DNA of 64,000 nt from Isoptericola peretonis (GTDB lineage Bacteria > Actinomycetota > Actinomycetes > Actinomycetales > Cellulomonadaceae), in NCBI GenBank assembly GCA_023241745.1, contig JALQCY010000001.1, positions 644,054 through 708,053 on the forward strand, written 5' to 3'. Positions 44,589 to 48,688 of the stretch are shown here, in pieces (within the stretch, counting starts at the first letter, position 1; each line of letters begins with the position of its first letter). A program made the translations under genes and the position numbers. Under the pieces are notes generated by a model that saw only the letters and a program-made list of their open reading frames with translations, was not told the origin of the DNA and searched no databases.

Positions 44589-45683
44589 TCAGGAGTACAC
44601 GGTGCCCATGAGGTCGCGGACGTCCGCCAGCGTGCGGTCGGCGACCGCGTTCGCCCGGGCGTTGCCCCGCGCGAGGACGTCGCGCACGACGGCGGGGGCG
44701 TCGGCGGCGAGCGCGCGGCGCCGCTCGCGGAGCGGGCGCAGCCCCTCCACGACCGCCTCGGTGACGACCGCCTTGAGGCGGCCGGCCCCGGCGTCCGCCA
44801 CGGACGCGGCCAGGTCCTCCGGCGTCGTCCCGGCGAAGTGCGCACCGATCCGCAGCAGGTTCGCGACCTCGGGCCGGCCCTCCGGGTCGAACGCGATGTG
44901 CCGCTCGGAGTCCGTCCGGGCCCGGCGGAAGAACGCCACCGTCTCGTCCTCGGACGCCCGCAGCTCCAGGGCGTTGCCGCGCGACTTGCTCATCTTGGCG
45001 CCGTCGTCGCCCAGCACGGTGAGCGACGGCGTGAGCAGCGCCTCCGGCTCGGGGAAGTACGGCCGGGCGGCGGCGTAGCGCTGGTTGAACCGCCGCGCGA
45101 CCGTCCGCGTGGTCTCGAGGTGCGGCAGCTGGTCCAGCCCCACGGGCACGAGGTTGCCGTGGCAGAACAGGATGTCGGCGGCCTGGTGCACCGGGTACGT
45201 GAACAGCAGCCCGGACATGCCCCGCCCCTGGCGGCGCTCGGCGTCGACCGCCTCCGCCTTGACGGTGGGGTTGCGCTCCAGCTCCGCCACGCTCACCAGC
45301 GACAGGAACGGCAGCAGCAGCTGGTTCAGCGCCGGCACGGCGGAGTGCGTGAACACCGTGGTGCGGGCGGGGTCGATGCCGGCCGCCAGGTAGTCCAGCA
45401 CCACCTCGCGCACGACGGCGGGCAGGTCGCCCGTGTCGTCGCGGTCGGTGATGACCTGGTAGTCCGCGACGACGAGCACGACGTCCACGCCGGCGTCCTG
45501 CAGGCGCACCCGGTTGTCCAGCGTGGCGAGCAGGTGGCCGAGGTGCAGGGCGCCGGTCGGGCGGTCGCCGGTGAGGACACGGAATCGACCCGGGTCGCGC
45601 GCGATCTCCGCCTCGATCGCGGCGGAACGCGCCTGCGCGACGGCGGCGCTCGCGGTCGGCGCGGGGGTGGTCAGGACGGTCAT
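44589..45683 (-). CDS. trpS: Tryptophanyl-tRNA synthetase, type II
   Basis: A 364-residue class I synthetase. The HIGH motif appears as TGALHLGHL, preceded by GDRPTG, and KMSKS begins at K230 (AKMSKSRG). The GDRPTG-LHLGH form is that of the auxiliary TrpRS II of Deinococcus and of indolmycin-resistant actinobacterial enzymes, unlike the QPSG-IGNY housekeeping type. That makes this an auxiliary or alternative enzyme. It is preceded by a leader peptide gene with three Trp codons (45789-45833), so its expression is probably governed by charged Trp-tRNA. A housekeeping trpS elsewhere is not visible here. Confidence 0.92.
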   Translation of the reverse strand: MTVLTTPAPTASAAVAQARSAAIEAEIARDPGRFRVLTGDRPTGALHLGHLLATLDNRVRLQDAGVDVVLVVADYQVITDRDDTGDLPAVVREVVLDYLAAGIDPARTTVFTHSAVPALNQLLLPFLSLVSVAELERNPTVKAEAVDAERRQGRGMSGLLFTYPVHQAADILFCHGNLVPVGLDQLPHLETTRTVARRFNQRYAAARPYFPEPEALLTPSLTVLGDDGAKMSKSRGNALELRASEDETVAFFRRARTDSERHIAFDPEGRPEVANLLRIGAHFAGTTPEDLAASVADAGAGRLKAVVTEAVVEGLRPLRERRRALAADAPAVVRDVLARGNARANAVADRTLADVRDLMGTVYS

Positions 45684-45710
45684 GGGGAGCGGCTCCTTCG
45701 AGGGATCGCC

Positions 45711-45768
45711 GCCCGTCGGTCCGGTCCGGACACGAGAGCGTCCCGGCTGCGACGGGCAGCTCGGGACG
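45711..45768 (-). promoter_or_regulatory. Attenuator structures of trpS
   Basis: In the leader RNA a strong hairpin (45739-45768) pairs CGTCCCG-A-GCTGC with GCAGC-CGGGACG. Its loop region (GCCCGTCG, 45757-45750) can instead pair with CGACGGGC at 45718-45711, just before the trpS ribosome site AAGGAG. The two pairings exclude each other. No U-run is obvious. Confidence 0.65.
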
Positions 45769-45788
45769 GGATGCGTGGGCGCGTCAGG

Positions 45789-45833
45789 TCAGGGCTGCGG
45801 GGGCAGCCACCACCAGGACGCGCGCATCGACAT
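45789..45833 (-). CDS. Trp leader peptide MSMRASWWWLPPQP
   Basis: A 14-residue leader frame with three consecutive Trp codons (TGG TGG TGG, 45815-45807) and a TGA at 45791-45789. It ends about 105 bases before trpS. TAGGGT (45846-45841) lies 7 nt before its ATG, so the transcript would start at or near the codon. Ribosome stalling at these Trp codons when Trp-tRNA is low would shift the downstream pairing. This is the classic layout of ribosome-mediated attenuation, reported for an auxiliary Streptomyces trpS. Confidence 0.85.
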   Translation of the reverse strand: MSMRASWWWLPPQP

Positions 45834-45892
45834 GTCGCCCACCCTATGCCACGGCCGCCGGCATCCCTCGGCGGCCGTGATCAGATGCTCTC

Positions 45893-48688
45893 GTGGAGAG
45901 AGAACCCCGCGGCGACGGCCACGGACGCATCCTCGGACGCGACGCCGAGCTCGATCGCATCGACCGCCTCGCGGCCGCGGGCGCAGGCGGTGCGCTGCTC
46001 GTCGTCGGCGAGCCGGGCCTGGGCAAGACGACCCTGCTGGAGCACGGCGTCGCGCACGCGCGGCGGGCCGGCCGACGCGTCCTCACCGCGAGGTGCGCCC
46101 GGGGGGAGCGCGACCTGCCGTTCGCGGTCCTCCACCAGCTCCTGCTGCCGCGCCTCGACGGCCTCGACCGCCTCCCGGCTCCCCAGGCCCGGGCCCTCGG
46201 CGCCGCGCTCGGCCTGCGCGAGGACACGGCGATTCCCGATCGGCTGCATCTCGCGGCCGGAGCGTTGACGCTCCTGTGCGAGGCGAGCACGGGCGCCGCG
46301 GACGACGGCGGCACGCTCGCCGTCGTCGACGACCTGCACTGGGCCGACGACGCATCCCGCGACGTGCTGCTGTTCTGCGCGCGTCGCCTGGCCGACGCCT
46401 CGGCGGGCACGGCCCTGCTCGTGACCACGCGGCCCGATCCGCCGCAGGACCCCCTCCCGACGATCACGCTGTCCGGGCTCGACGCCCGGGACGCAGCCCG
46501 GGTGCTCGACCTGCAGCCCGTCCCGCCGTCGCCGGCGGTGCGGCACGACCTGATCGAGCACGCGGCGGGCAACCCGCTGGCGCTGGTGGAGCTCTCGCGG
46601 TCCGACGGCGCGCCGCCCTCGCCCGGGCAGCCCTCGGGCGGGCCCTGGCCCGTGAGCGAGCGGGTCGAGCAGGCGTTCGCGGCGCGCCTCCCGGCGCTGC
46701 CCGCGCCGACGCGGTGGCTGCTGCTCCTCGCCGCCGCCGCGGACGGCGACGACCTCGCCCCGGTGCTCACGGCCGCCGGAGGCGACGCCGGAAGCCCGGT
46801 GGACGGCGGAGACGGCCCGCTCGCCGCCTGGGTGCCGGCCGAGGCCGCCGGTCTGGTGCGCCTGGACGGTCCGCGCTTCCGCTTCCGTCATCCGCTCGCT
46901 CGGTCGGCGGTCTACCACGCCGCCCCGTTCGCCGAGCGGCGGGGAGCGCACCTGGCACTGGCGGAGGCGGTGGTGGACCCCGACCGCCGTGCCTGGCACC
47001 GGGCCGCGGCCGCCGTCGGCCCGGACGCCGATGTCGCCGCCGAGCTCGAGCAGACCGCGGACCGGGCGCGCGAGCGGGGAGGCTGGGCCGCGAGCGCCCG
47101 CGCGCTGGAGCGCGCCGCGGAGCTCTCGGCGGACCCCGAGGAGGCTGCCCGACTCTTCCTCCTCGCCGCGCCGGCCGCGATGTACACCGGACGCTCGCCC
47201 TGGGTGGAGCGCCTGGCGGACCGCGCCCGCGAGGCCACCGACGACGAGCGGACGCAGTGGGAGGCGGACCTGTACGCGGGCTGGGCGACCGCCTCGACGC
47301 CACGGCACCGGGAGGCGGTCGAGCGCCTGACGACGGTCGCCCGCCGGGCCGGAGCCGCGGACCCGGAGCTCGCCCTCGCCGCGCTGGCGCCGGCCACGGT
47401 GGCCGCCTACAACTCCGGCGACGACGGGCTGATCGACGCCGTCGCCGTGTGCCTCGAGTCCTTGCGGCCCGACGACACGGTGCCGGTCACCGCGTGGGTG
47501 CGGGGCACGGCGGCGCCGTTCGACCCGGCGTCGCGCGCCACGCTCGACCGCGCCGTGCGCGCGAACGCGCACCTCGGGATCAACGAGCTCAACGTGCTCG
47601 GCGGTGCCGCGTGGGTGCTCGACGAGACGGTGCTGGCGGCGCGACTGCTCGGCGAGCTGCTGGAGCTGTTCTCCCACGGCCCGACCGAGGGGACGAACGC
47701 GCTGGTCTCCGCCACCCTCGCGGCGGGCCTGCACGAGCTCGGCCGGTGGGACGACGCCCAGGCGCACGCGGAGGACGCCGTGCGGGTCGCCGAGGCGACC
47801 GGGATGCCGGTCGTGCGCGCGTCCGCGGTCGAGACGGCGGCTCTGCTGGCAGCAGGCCGCGGCCGCGTCGACGAGGCGCGCGAGCTGGCCCAGCACGCGC
47901 TCGCCGACGTCGGACCTGACGCCACGCGGTCGGTGGAGGTGCGCGCCCGCCAGGCCCTGGGCCTCGCGTCGCTCGTGGCGGGCGAGCCGGACGCCGCGTA
48001 CGACGTGCTGCGTCGCACGTTCGCCCCCGACGGCCTCCCTCTGCACCGCCACACGTCGGTGCACGGCGTCGCGCTGCTGGCGTCGGCTGCCGCGCGTGCG
48101 GACCGGCCCGGGCAGGCTCACGACGCCGAGCGTGTCGTCGCGGCCGTCGCCGCGCACGTCGGTGCGCACCCGGGACCGCGCGTGGCCTCGTTGCTGCACC
48201 ACGCACGCGCCCTCCTGGCCGCTCCGGAGGAGTCCGAGCGCGAGTATCGCGCCGCTCTCGCGGACCCGGCCGGCGCGACCTGGCCGTTCGAGCGCGCCCT
48301 GGTGCGGCTCGATCTGGGCGAGAGGCTGCGACGCCTGCACCGCGTGAGCGAGGCACGCACCGAGCTGAGCGCGGCCCGCGAGACGTTCCTGCGGATCGGC
48401 GCCGCGACGTTCGCGGACCGGGCGACCGCGGAGCTGCGGGCGGCGGGGGTCGCGGTGGCCGAGCGCACCCCGGACGCGCTCGCGCAGCTCACCCCGCAGC
48501 AGCGCCGCATCGTCCGGCTGGCCGCCGAGGGACGCACCAACCGTGAGATCGCGGAACGGCTCTTCCTGTCGCCGCGCACGGTCGGGTTCCACCTCTACCG
48601 CGTCTTCCCGGTGCTGGGCGTGACGTCGCGCGCCCAGCTGCGCGACCTGGTCGACGCGGGGGCGTCCGAAGCAGGACCAGTCATCTGA
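45893..48688 (+). CDS. LAL-type LuxR family transcriptional regulator
   Basis: A 931-residue large ATP-binding LuxR regulator. The N-terminal ATPase has Walker A GEPGLGKTTLLE, Walker B TLAVVDDLHWADDASR and a sensor-like LLVTTRPD. A long helical (TPR-like) middle follows, and the C-terminal HTH is LTPQQRRIVRLAAEGRTNREIAERLFLSPRTVGFHLYRVF. LAL proteins act as activators responding to sugars or small metabolites. The two alpha/beta hydrolase genes downstream, after a hairpin, may be its targets. GTG 45893; it is divergent from the trpS leader. Confidence 0.92.
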   Translation: MEREPRGDGHGRILGRDAELDRIDRLAAAGAGGALLVVGEPGLGKTTLLEHGVAHARRAGRRVLTARCARGERDLPFAVLHQLLLPRLDGLDRLPAPQARALGAALGLREDTAIPDRLHLAAGALTLLCEASTGAADDGGTLAVVDDLHWADDASRDVLLFCARRLADASAGTALLVTTRPDPPQDPLPTITLSGLDARDAARVLDLQPVPPSPAVRHDLIEHAAGNPLALVELSRSDGAPPSPGQPSGGPWPVSERVEQAFAARLPALPAPTRWLLLLAAAADGDDLAPVLTAAGGDAGSPVDGGDGPLAAWVPAEAAGLVRLDGPRFRFRHPLARSAVYHAAPFAERRGAHLALAEAVVDPDRRAWHRAAAAVGPDADVAAELEQTADRARERGGWAASARALERAAELSADPEEAARLFLLAAPAAMYTGRSPWVERLADRAREATDDERTQWEADLYAGWATASTPRHREAVERLTTVARRAGAADPELALAALAPATVAAYNSGDDGLIDAVAVCLESLRPDDTVPVTAWVRGTAAPFDPASRATLDRAVRANAHLGINELNVLGGAAWVLDETVLAARLLGELLELFSHGPTEGTNALVSATLAAGLHELGRWDDAQAHAEDAVRVAEATGMPVVRASAVETAALLAAGRGRVDEARELAQHALADVGPDATRSVEVRARQALGLASLVAGEPDAAYDVLRRTFAPDGLPLHRHTSVHGVALLASAAARADRPGQAHDAERVVAAVAAHVGAHPGPRVASLLHHARALLAAPEESEREYRAALADPAGATWPFERALVRLDLGERLRRLHRVSEARTELSAARETFLRIGAATFADRATAELRAAGVAVAERTPDALAQLTPQQRRIVRLAAEGRTNREIAERLFLSPRTVGFHLYRVFPVLGVTSRAQLRDLVDAGASEAGPVI

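Follow-up and report, generated by a model that had tools for sequence, protein, structure and literature searches.

The type II tryptophanyl-tRNA synthetase gene (trpS) of Isoptericola peretonis is very probably controlled by a ribosome-mediated attenuator that senses the charging of tRNA-Trp. We analysed a 64-kb window (the whole stretch of DNA under study) of contig JALQCY010000001.1 (GCA_023241745.1), in which the feature lies on the minus strand. Sequence comparison with related loci supports a leader peptide with a run of Trp codons, a -10 element, a set of competing RNA segments and the covariation of an additional pairing, C:D, close to the ribosome site of trpS. Our confidence concerns a Trp-tRNA attenuator as such; two rival readings, plain termination and a C:D helix that opens the ribosome site, differ from ours only in the output step. 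Control of this kind is known from Streptomyces, and the C:D element and the patchy occurrence of a U-run make the window's leader a variant of it.

Results

The leader and its gene

The original prediction, made from the letters of the window, had proposed Trp-leader attenuation of a type II trpS. Its coordinates for the -10 element, the leader ORF, the hairpin, the alternative pairing and trpS were all confirmed on the minus strand (Table 1), and attenuation itself is supported by the presence of the leader ORF in 13 of the 13 Isoptericola genomes with a full-length type II trpS, including that of the window. trpS appears to be monocistronic because the gene upstream, for an AAA-LuxR regulator, is divergent and the gene downstream, for a GTP-PEPCK, is convergent.

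Table 1. Features of the trpS leader region in the window
Feature	Position	Strand	Basis and remarks
-10 element TAGGGT	45846..45841	-	Sequence and conservation in related loci; a 7-nt gap separates it from the leader ATG
Predicted leader peptide ORF MSMRASWWWLPPQP, stop included	45833..45789	-	14 residues, TGA stop ending at 45789; conserved in the genus
Three Trp codons (TGG)3, inside arm 1	45815..45807	-	Sequence
Long 1:2 hairpin	45828..45770	-	Folding; Trp codons in the 5' arm, leader stop codon in the 3' arm
Inner part of the 1:2 hairpin	45816-45785	-	Arm 2 core GCAGCC at 45798-45793
Strong hairpin 3:4 (C:C')	45768..45739	-	-21.9 kcal/mol; without a U-run
Segment C GAGCTGCCCGTC	45762..45751	-	5' arm and loop of the 3:4 hairpin; proposed hub
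Element D GACGGGCGGC	45717..45708	-	Complementary to C; covariation; ends 9 nt upstream of the Shine-Dalgarno sequence
trpS Shine-Dalgarno sequence AAGGAG	45698..45693	-	Sequence
Type II trpS, 364 aa, GDRPTGALHLGH / KMSKS	45683..44589	-	TIGR00233, PF00579 and PDB matches

We scanned both strands of the window for TANNNT followed after 6-7 nt by ATG or GTG and an ORF of 5-35 aa containing WW. The leader was the single match, and 30 first-order random sequences of the same length gave one match between them (mean 0.03). The 153-nt leader RNA has a folding energy of -83.2 kcal/mol, and 200 shuffled copies average -64.4 (sd 4.2; z -4.5). A sigma-70 promoter scan of 45600-46000 found no match, and the promoter call therefore rests on the -10 element and its conservation. 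No Rfam family reached its gathering score within the window; in 45600-45950, at up to E 5, Rfam gave one match only, a microRNA family at E 4.6, which we took as chance.

The product is identified as a tryptophanyl-tRNA synthetase (TrpRS) by TIGR00233, above its cut-off, and by PF00579. It carries the type II signature GDRPTG-LHLGH as well as KMSKS. By sequence, the PDB entries that match it best are 1yi8 and 2a4m, both of them Deinococcus radiodurans proteins; 2a4m bears the name TrpRS II. In all 131 type II rows, DYQ takes the place of the DLH found in the four housekeeping rows (4/4). The His of DLH presumably matters for indolmycin, and its replacement by Q is no more than a hint of resistance. 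The genome holds one other trpS only, of the QPTDG type (MQPTDGSLHLGN) and 36% identical to the window enzyme. Judged by sequence, the type II gene is thus a spare TrpRS beside the housekeeping one in this genome. The housekeeping copies of the genus differ in their upstream regions: in 13 of 17 TGGTGG is missing from the 500 nt before the gene, and in the remaining four it occurs only at 340-387 nt.

Leader peptide and predicted leaderless start

The Trp run reads WWW in six of the 13 genus leaders and WW followed by Arg in the other seven. Two Trp codons are thus the constant part and the third is not. A loss of the Trp frame in relatives, which would have refuted the original prediction, was not seen.

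Among trpS leaders of related loci, TANNNT stands 6-7 nt before the start codon in 80 of 84, a count favoured by the start codon having been picked by hand among several in some leaders (e.g. L001, L113 and L127). The 84 comprise 44 aligned leaders and 40 picked by hand from locus lists, and the remaining four of them form one clade with CATACT or CATAAT at the -10 position. From the conserved -10 element and its gap we predict a leaderless leader mRNA, and the frequency of this arrangement indicates that a leaderless leader peptide is the rule for these trpS leaders. The original prediction had called such a start unusual. That view does not hold given the 80 leaders with this pattern and the leaders trpL1, trpL2, leuL1, leuL2, ilvL, metL and thrL of S. 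lividans, which the relevant part of an earlier report describes as leaderless (PMC8079986); by that account a leaderless leader peptide is not new.

Competing hairpins

We aligned 44 rows, namely loci of at least 65% identity with a WW leader, identical sequences being merged. L010 and L055 (no start codon behind the Shine-Dalgarno sequence, SD), L015, L071, L073 and L086 were left out, and WW ORFs far upstream or in the coding start in L071, L073, L077, L099 and L109 were taken as chance. Segments for 1:2, 2:3 and 3:4 are all present in the sequence. In all 44 leaders arm 1 contains the Trp codons, and arm 2 includes the stop codon of the leader ORF. Standard pairs fill 96.7% of the 1:2 and 3:4 cells, many of them invariant, and 98.6% of the cells of the inner 1:2 helix, which is mostly invariant. 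In 28 single-sequence folds the outer 1:2 pairs often differ by genus (e.g. GGCGC:GCGCC, GCAG:CTGC and ACGCG:CGTGT). Hairpin 3:4 is nearly invariant among the aligned leaders, and pair counts therefore say little about it.

Arm 2 (GCAGCC) is able to pair with the 5' arm of 3:4 (GAGCUGC), which is the classical 2:3 pairing; its core is invariant, and so covariation gives it no support. Energies in the window are -16.0 kcal/mol for 1:2, -21.9 for 3:4 and, calculated as free duplexes without loop cost, -11.1 for 2:3 and -21.5 for C:D. Given that 3:4 is by far the more stable of 2:3 and 3:4, the ON state has to depend on kinetics. A covariance model of the leader, R1, scores 121 bits on the window and recovered few distant leaders. 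At 0.001 it matched 7 of 296 class genomes, and four of these places were not trpS. Because R1 detects its own kind and few distant leaders, its silence elsewhere says little.

An additional pairing near the ribosome site

Segment C pairs with D, just upstream of the trpS ribosome site. The alternative pairing of the original prediction, GCCCGTCG (45757-45750) with CGACGGGC (45718-45711), proved to be the pairing that covaries in relatives. Over the 44 sequences, standard pairs make up 94.3% of the cells of the eight C:D pairs, and 17 cells are changed on both sides. The covariation score is 0.281, against 0.155 for shuffles, which leave relatedness in, and 0.006-0.077 for slid controls, which keep it. 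For paired cells, covariation score and cells changed on both sides, none of 500 shuffles was as high. The two coarser of our five measures were no better than shuffles (pairs changed on both sides, 2 vs 1.9; further pair types, 9 vs 8.5). Columns 110:200 shift from C-G (24) to G-C (10) across the aligned leaders, and columns 112:198 from G-C (19) to A-U (4) and U-A (3). When only the loop positions were shuffled, the count was 179 against 148.0 (sd 3.7), and with one row for each of the 27 distinct loop/D combinations it was 102 against 82.5 (sd 3.3); in both cases 0 of 5000 shuffles were as high.

The signal is specific to its register, with z 8.3 in register and at most 2.2 at ten other registers. 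At slide +4 the loop positions pair in 76% of cells, against 88% in register, and do so without covariation. Three rows of the window clade carry a loop T paired with A, at a place where C is paired with G in Isoptericola rows; in L049 the loop and D are each one base shorter. A row's own C:D partner beats swapped partners in 37 of 44 rows. The seven exceptions are mostly Antribacter-like and Sanguibacter/Flavimobilis leaders, among which the own partner is no better than swapped ones in five of six rows. C:D is kept within the aligned family both with and without a U-run.

Tested against its own shuffled region, C:D of the window gives p 0.003 and that of L048 is no better than shuffled (p 0.23). 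Outside the aligned family, we compared the pairing of loop plus 5' arm with the region up to the SD, own against shuffled. The loop pairs with the region upstream of the SD in 12 of 12 anchored Jiangella-like rows (p <=0.010; these are near-copies, and L167 was not anchored) and in four of four rows of the neighbouring GTG clade (p <=0.033). The same pairing was found in one of five anchored Intrasporangiaceae rows, where L081 was not anchored and the SD search shortened the regions, and in two of eight Streptomycetaceae-type rows at p 0.05.

We also considered sequestration of the SD by an adjacent anti-SD helix. In the window the best such helix has 5 pairs (p 0.69), and the idea was dropped. 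When the SD was tested for pairing with the preceding 48 nt, p <=0.05 was reached in 12 of 83 loci, a count in which the SD is mis-assigned in at least L098, L101, L115 and L086; the 83 are the 84 leaders less one without an assigned SD. On visual inspection such a helix had seemed convincing in Oerskovia, Intrasporangiaceae and Jiangella; for the window it was not used, given its p of 0.69.

The U-run

Does the 3:4 hairpin resemble an intrinsic terminator? In the window it is followed by GCTCTCGTGTCC, with a longest T-run of 1, and a terminator scan gave no match at this hairpin. Because the search for the best hairpin by energy often joined two hairpins, we measured the U-run from the conserved 3' arm. 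This was done for 55 + 21 = 76 of the 84 leaders, the eight classed as 'other' being left out; group names (Promicromonospora, Cellulosimicrobium, Jiangella-like and so on) were assigned by leader-peptide pattern. A T-run of at least 4 follows the hairpin in 17 of the 76, all of Streptomycetaceae type (8/8) or Promicromonospora type (9/11). It was found in none of the Krasilnikoviella/Isoptericola/Puerhibacterium (0/13), Cellulosimicrobium (0/10), Antribacter-like (0/4), Oerskovia (0/3), Intrasporangiaceae (0/6), Jiangella-like (0/13), GTG-clade (0/4), Nocardiaceae (0/2) or Sanguibacter/Flavimobilis (0/2) leaders. With no U-run after it, the window hairpin is not a canonical terminator, and we infer from this absence that the window version may act partly at translation. 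An attenuator is still the best explanation of the leader, with the correction to the original prediction that the hairpin gives no evidence of classical intrinsic termination.

Distribution in relatives

The ortholog is full-length in 13 of 18 Isoptericola genomes (that of the window included), reduced to a fragment in one (G017) and missing from four. In the fragment (L015, 1397-1569 onward) the leader and hairpin are kept (99 bits to R1), the 5' part of trpS is mostly lost and residues ~242-363 remain. In two Isoptericola chiayiensis loci (L010 and L055) no ATG, GTG or TTG stands at the usual distance behind the type II trpS SD; the gene may start at another place or with a rare codon, or the sequence may contain an error.

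A type II trpS match at E 1e-60 or better occurs in 75 of 200 family genomes. Our wider sample held at least 80 named loci and further loci from the class and from plasmids. Among the matches listed, WW leaders precede type II trpS in Promicromonosporaceae, Oerskovia, Sanguibacter, Intrasporangiaceae and Jiangella, and also in some Nocardiaceae, Streptomyces and Embleya and some Propionibacteriaceae; no leader was recognised among them in the sampled Brachybacterium, Actinomycetaceae, Ruaniaceae and Nocardioides loci. A type II trpS with a WW leader is found on Rhodococcus sp. DN22 plasmid p1 (L139) and on a plasmid of Streptomyces sp. Mut1 (L136). Of the three trpS matches in Antribacter soli, two score as type II, and each of these two has its own WW leader (MALRRDWWRLHPQP and MTLRRSWWRLPSQP; L034 at G043:C25, and L060, whose coordinates are the same as G043:C66 and G478:C66).

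In a quick tree analysis of 135 proteins (87 rows with a leader, 43 without, five not counted), the best tree needs at least 8 changes of leader state. Starred branches force 6 of these, and shuffled states need ~37-40. The long branches L140 and L119 are joined on this tree and may be misplaced. The records L066 and L102 bear the names Sphaerisporangium cinnabarinum and Xylanimonas cellulosilytica, and the tree places their trpS genes within Cellulosimicrobium and Actinomyces/Schaalia; these labels may be wrong.

Among 36 named genomes, 17 gave at least two trpS matches and 19 a single one. A WW leader is present in 14 genomes of the first set (L072, L096 and L119 lack it) and in three of the second. 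Fisher's test on 35 rows (L053 dropped as identical, L096 counted with a leader despite its one Trp codon) compares 14/16 with 3/19 and gives p 3e-5, a link that relatedness may explain, since starred branches leave only three independent pairs. No trpS other than the type II gene was found in L068, L087 and L089 (Sanguibacter hominis, Austwickia chelonae and Propioniciclava flava), genome completeness not being given, and in all three this gene has a Trp leader. Leader control is therefore not limited to spare genes. The original prediction's auxiliary trpS is borne out by the second gene in this genome, but not as a general property, given these three leaders among the 19 genomes with one trpS.

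Similar short ORFs stand before other genes. In L131 (G342, ~1500-2121) a leader, MRNDRANWWRLQ, and a hairpin precede a GNAT acetyltransferase gene; among 60 genomes of that genus, one contains the 25-base core. In L134 (G604, ~1480-1940) the short ORF MLTQTTFLFTYGNRPTGCHGRAA, possibly a Phe leader, precedes an ORF that we take to encode a chorismate mutase. On the minus strand of L133 (G607), upstream of 1515, MSTTSCWWHLR is possibly a trpE leader, and the ORF behind it presumably encodes an anthranilate synthase.

Discussion

How might such a leader control trpS? We infer stalling, the direction of the switch and a role for C:D. The leaderless mRNA would begin at or next to the leader AUG and so place a ribosome at once on the leader peptide. 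With ample Trp-tRNA, this ribosome would pass the WW(W) run and reach the UGA in arm 2; with arm 2 covered, C would fold with C' and trpS expression would be low. When Trp-tRNA is scarce, the ribosome would stall on the Trp codons in arm 1 and free arm 2 (GCAGCC) for C (GAGCUGC). The arm 2:C pairing would keep the C:C' hairpin from being made, and trpS would be expressed.

C would then be a hub, taken by arm 2 on stalling and otherwise by C' and, once it is transcribed, by D. Once RNA polymerase has gone by, the C:D pairing could silence the full-length mRNA, and starvation would then be read a second time at translation initiation. The end of D lies so near the SD that a 10-bp helix there would sit under or next to the initiating 30S subunit and may block initiation. 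That C:D is an OFF lock of this sort is nearly an even call. Our fuller reading we advance tentatively, as falling short of an even chance: that C has three partners (arm 2 for ON, C' for the hairpin and the SD-proximal D), that Trp-tRNA shortage is read twice, and that actinomycete trpS leaders have moved between a terminator with a U-run (the Streptomycetaceae type mostly without D, the Promicromonospora type with D) and a U-less form with D (Krasilnikoviella, Isoptericola, Cellulosimicrobium and Oerskovia, with Jiangella using a separate D-like pairing).

The strongest rival, which we consider doubtful though it deserves weight, is plain transcription attenuation, with C:C' as an intrinsic (U-poor) or Rho-assisted terminator as in Streptomyces and C:D formed in run-through RNA without a role. 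The T-runs of all eight Streptomycetaceae-type and nine of 11 Promicromonospora-type leaders fit this reading, as do a candidate attenuator predicted at S. avermitilis trpS2 (PMC1262725) and a U-poor version described for S. lividans trpL2 (PMC8079986), as far as the relevant parts of these papers go. However, a T-run is missing from all 13 leaders of the window clade and from all 44 in the eight other groups measured without one, and C:D covaries and persists in groups whether or not they have a U-run.

It is unlikely that C:D is instead an ON structure, which would compete with C:C' or with a fold at the SD and open the ribosome site. As a free duplex, C:D is about as strong as 3:4 in the window, and in three Oerskovia rows the bases after D form an SD helix of 6-7 bp (p 0.020, 0.043 and 0.086) that C:D would partly undo. 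However, D is made after the hairpin and so cannot stop termination there, the SD helix of the window is no better than shuffled, and, by our reasoning, an arm 2 freed by stalling would take C from D, which is the wrong direction. It is highly improbable that GC-rich DNA has produced the short ORF and the RNA folds by chance and that trpS is expressed constitutively: high G+C does make hairpins common and the sigma-70 scan found no match, but frame, spacing and folds are conserved over many genera, and the fold energy (z -4.5), the C:D covariation and the 0.03 random matches per window all speak against chance.

The proposed attenuator has known counterparts. Vecchione and Sello are said to have described, in 2010, ribosome-mediated attenuation of the auxiliary trpRS1 of Streptomyces coelicolor. 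Like that gene, the window has an auxiliary type II trpS behind a short leader with Trp codons and a hairpin before the gene. The eight Streptomycetaceae-type loci, three of which are Streptomyces or Embleya, share the leaderless pattern with the window. Unlike the window, they have a T-run, and their loop pairs downstream at p 0.05 in two of eight cases, against p 0.003 in the window. In the attenuator of E. coli trpL, Trp codons lie in arm 1 and the pairings 1:2, 2:3 and 3:4 compete. The window shares this arrangement but differs in its leaderless start, the stop codon in arm 2, the missing U-run, the fourth partner D and a synthetase gene as the target.

In S. lividans TK24, trpL2 (MMTRTCTQLWRAA; PMC8079986) likewise is a leaderless leader before trpS, with two hairpins and no U-rich stretch. 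Compared by this partial description only, it has one Trp codon against two or three in the window's genus, and the description has no SD-proximal third partner, unlike the window with its D. In the parts of their paper that bear on this work, Seliverstov et al. (2005) predicted attenuators at trp operons, with poly-U terminators. They also proposed S. avermitilis trpS2 as a candidate for attenuation and predicted for leuA an element with a pseudoknot (PMC1262725). The LEU element of actinobacterial leuA resembles the window in its leader codons, pseudoknot-capable RNA and link to the SD region; it differs, in the same parts, in that its run of Leu codons pairs with the SD itself, and its authors doubt control by a leader peptide (PMC1262725). 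Beyond PMC1262725 and PMC8079986 we found, judging by titles in the open-licence literature, no further paper on the trpS leaders of these genera. Nor did that literature, again judged by titles, yield a description of an SD-proximal third partner in trpS leaders, which may be in print elsewhere.

What do these leaders mean for actinomycetes? With them, the control of type II synthetase genes by Trp leaders reaches beyond Streptomyces into many groups of actinomycetes. As some of the leaders have a U-run and others lack it, they form a natural series for testing the change from transcriptional to translational attenuation directly, and C:D gives a precise break-and-restore prediction. Finally, S. 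coelicolor TrpRS1 is cited for indolmycin resistance in the pertinent passage of a review (PMC9437257); PMC8546547 has no mention of the subject. If the spare enzyme is indolmycin-resistant as in Streptomyces, the leader and its gene would be a ready-made sensor of TrpRS inhibition in ordinary soil bacteria.
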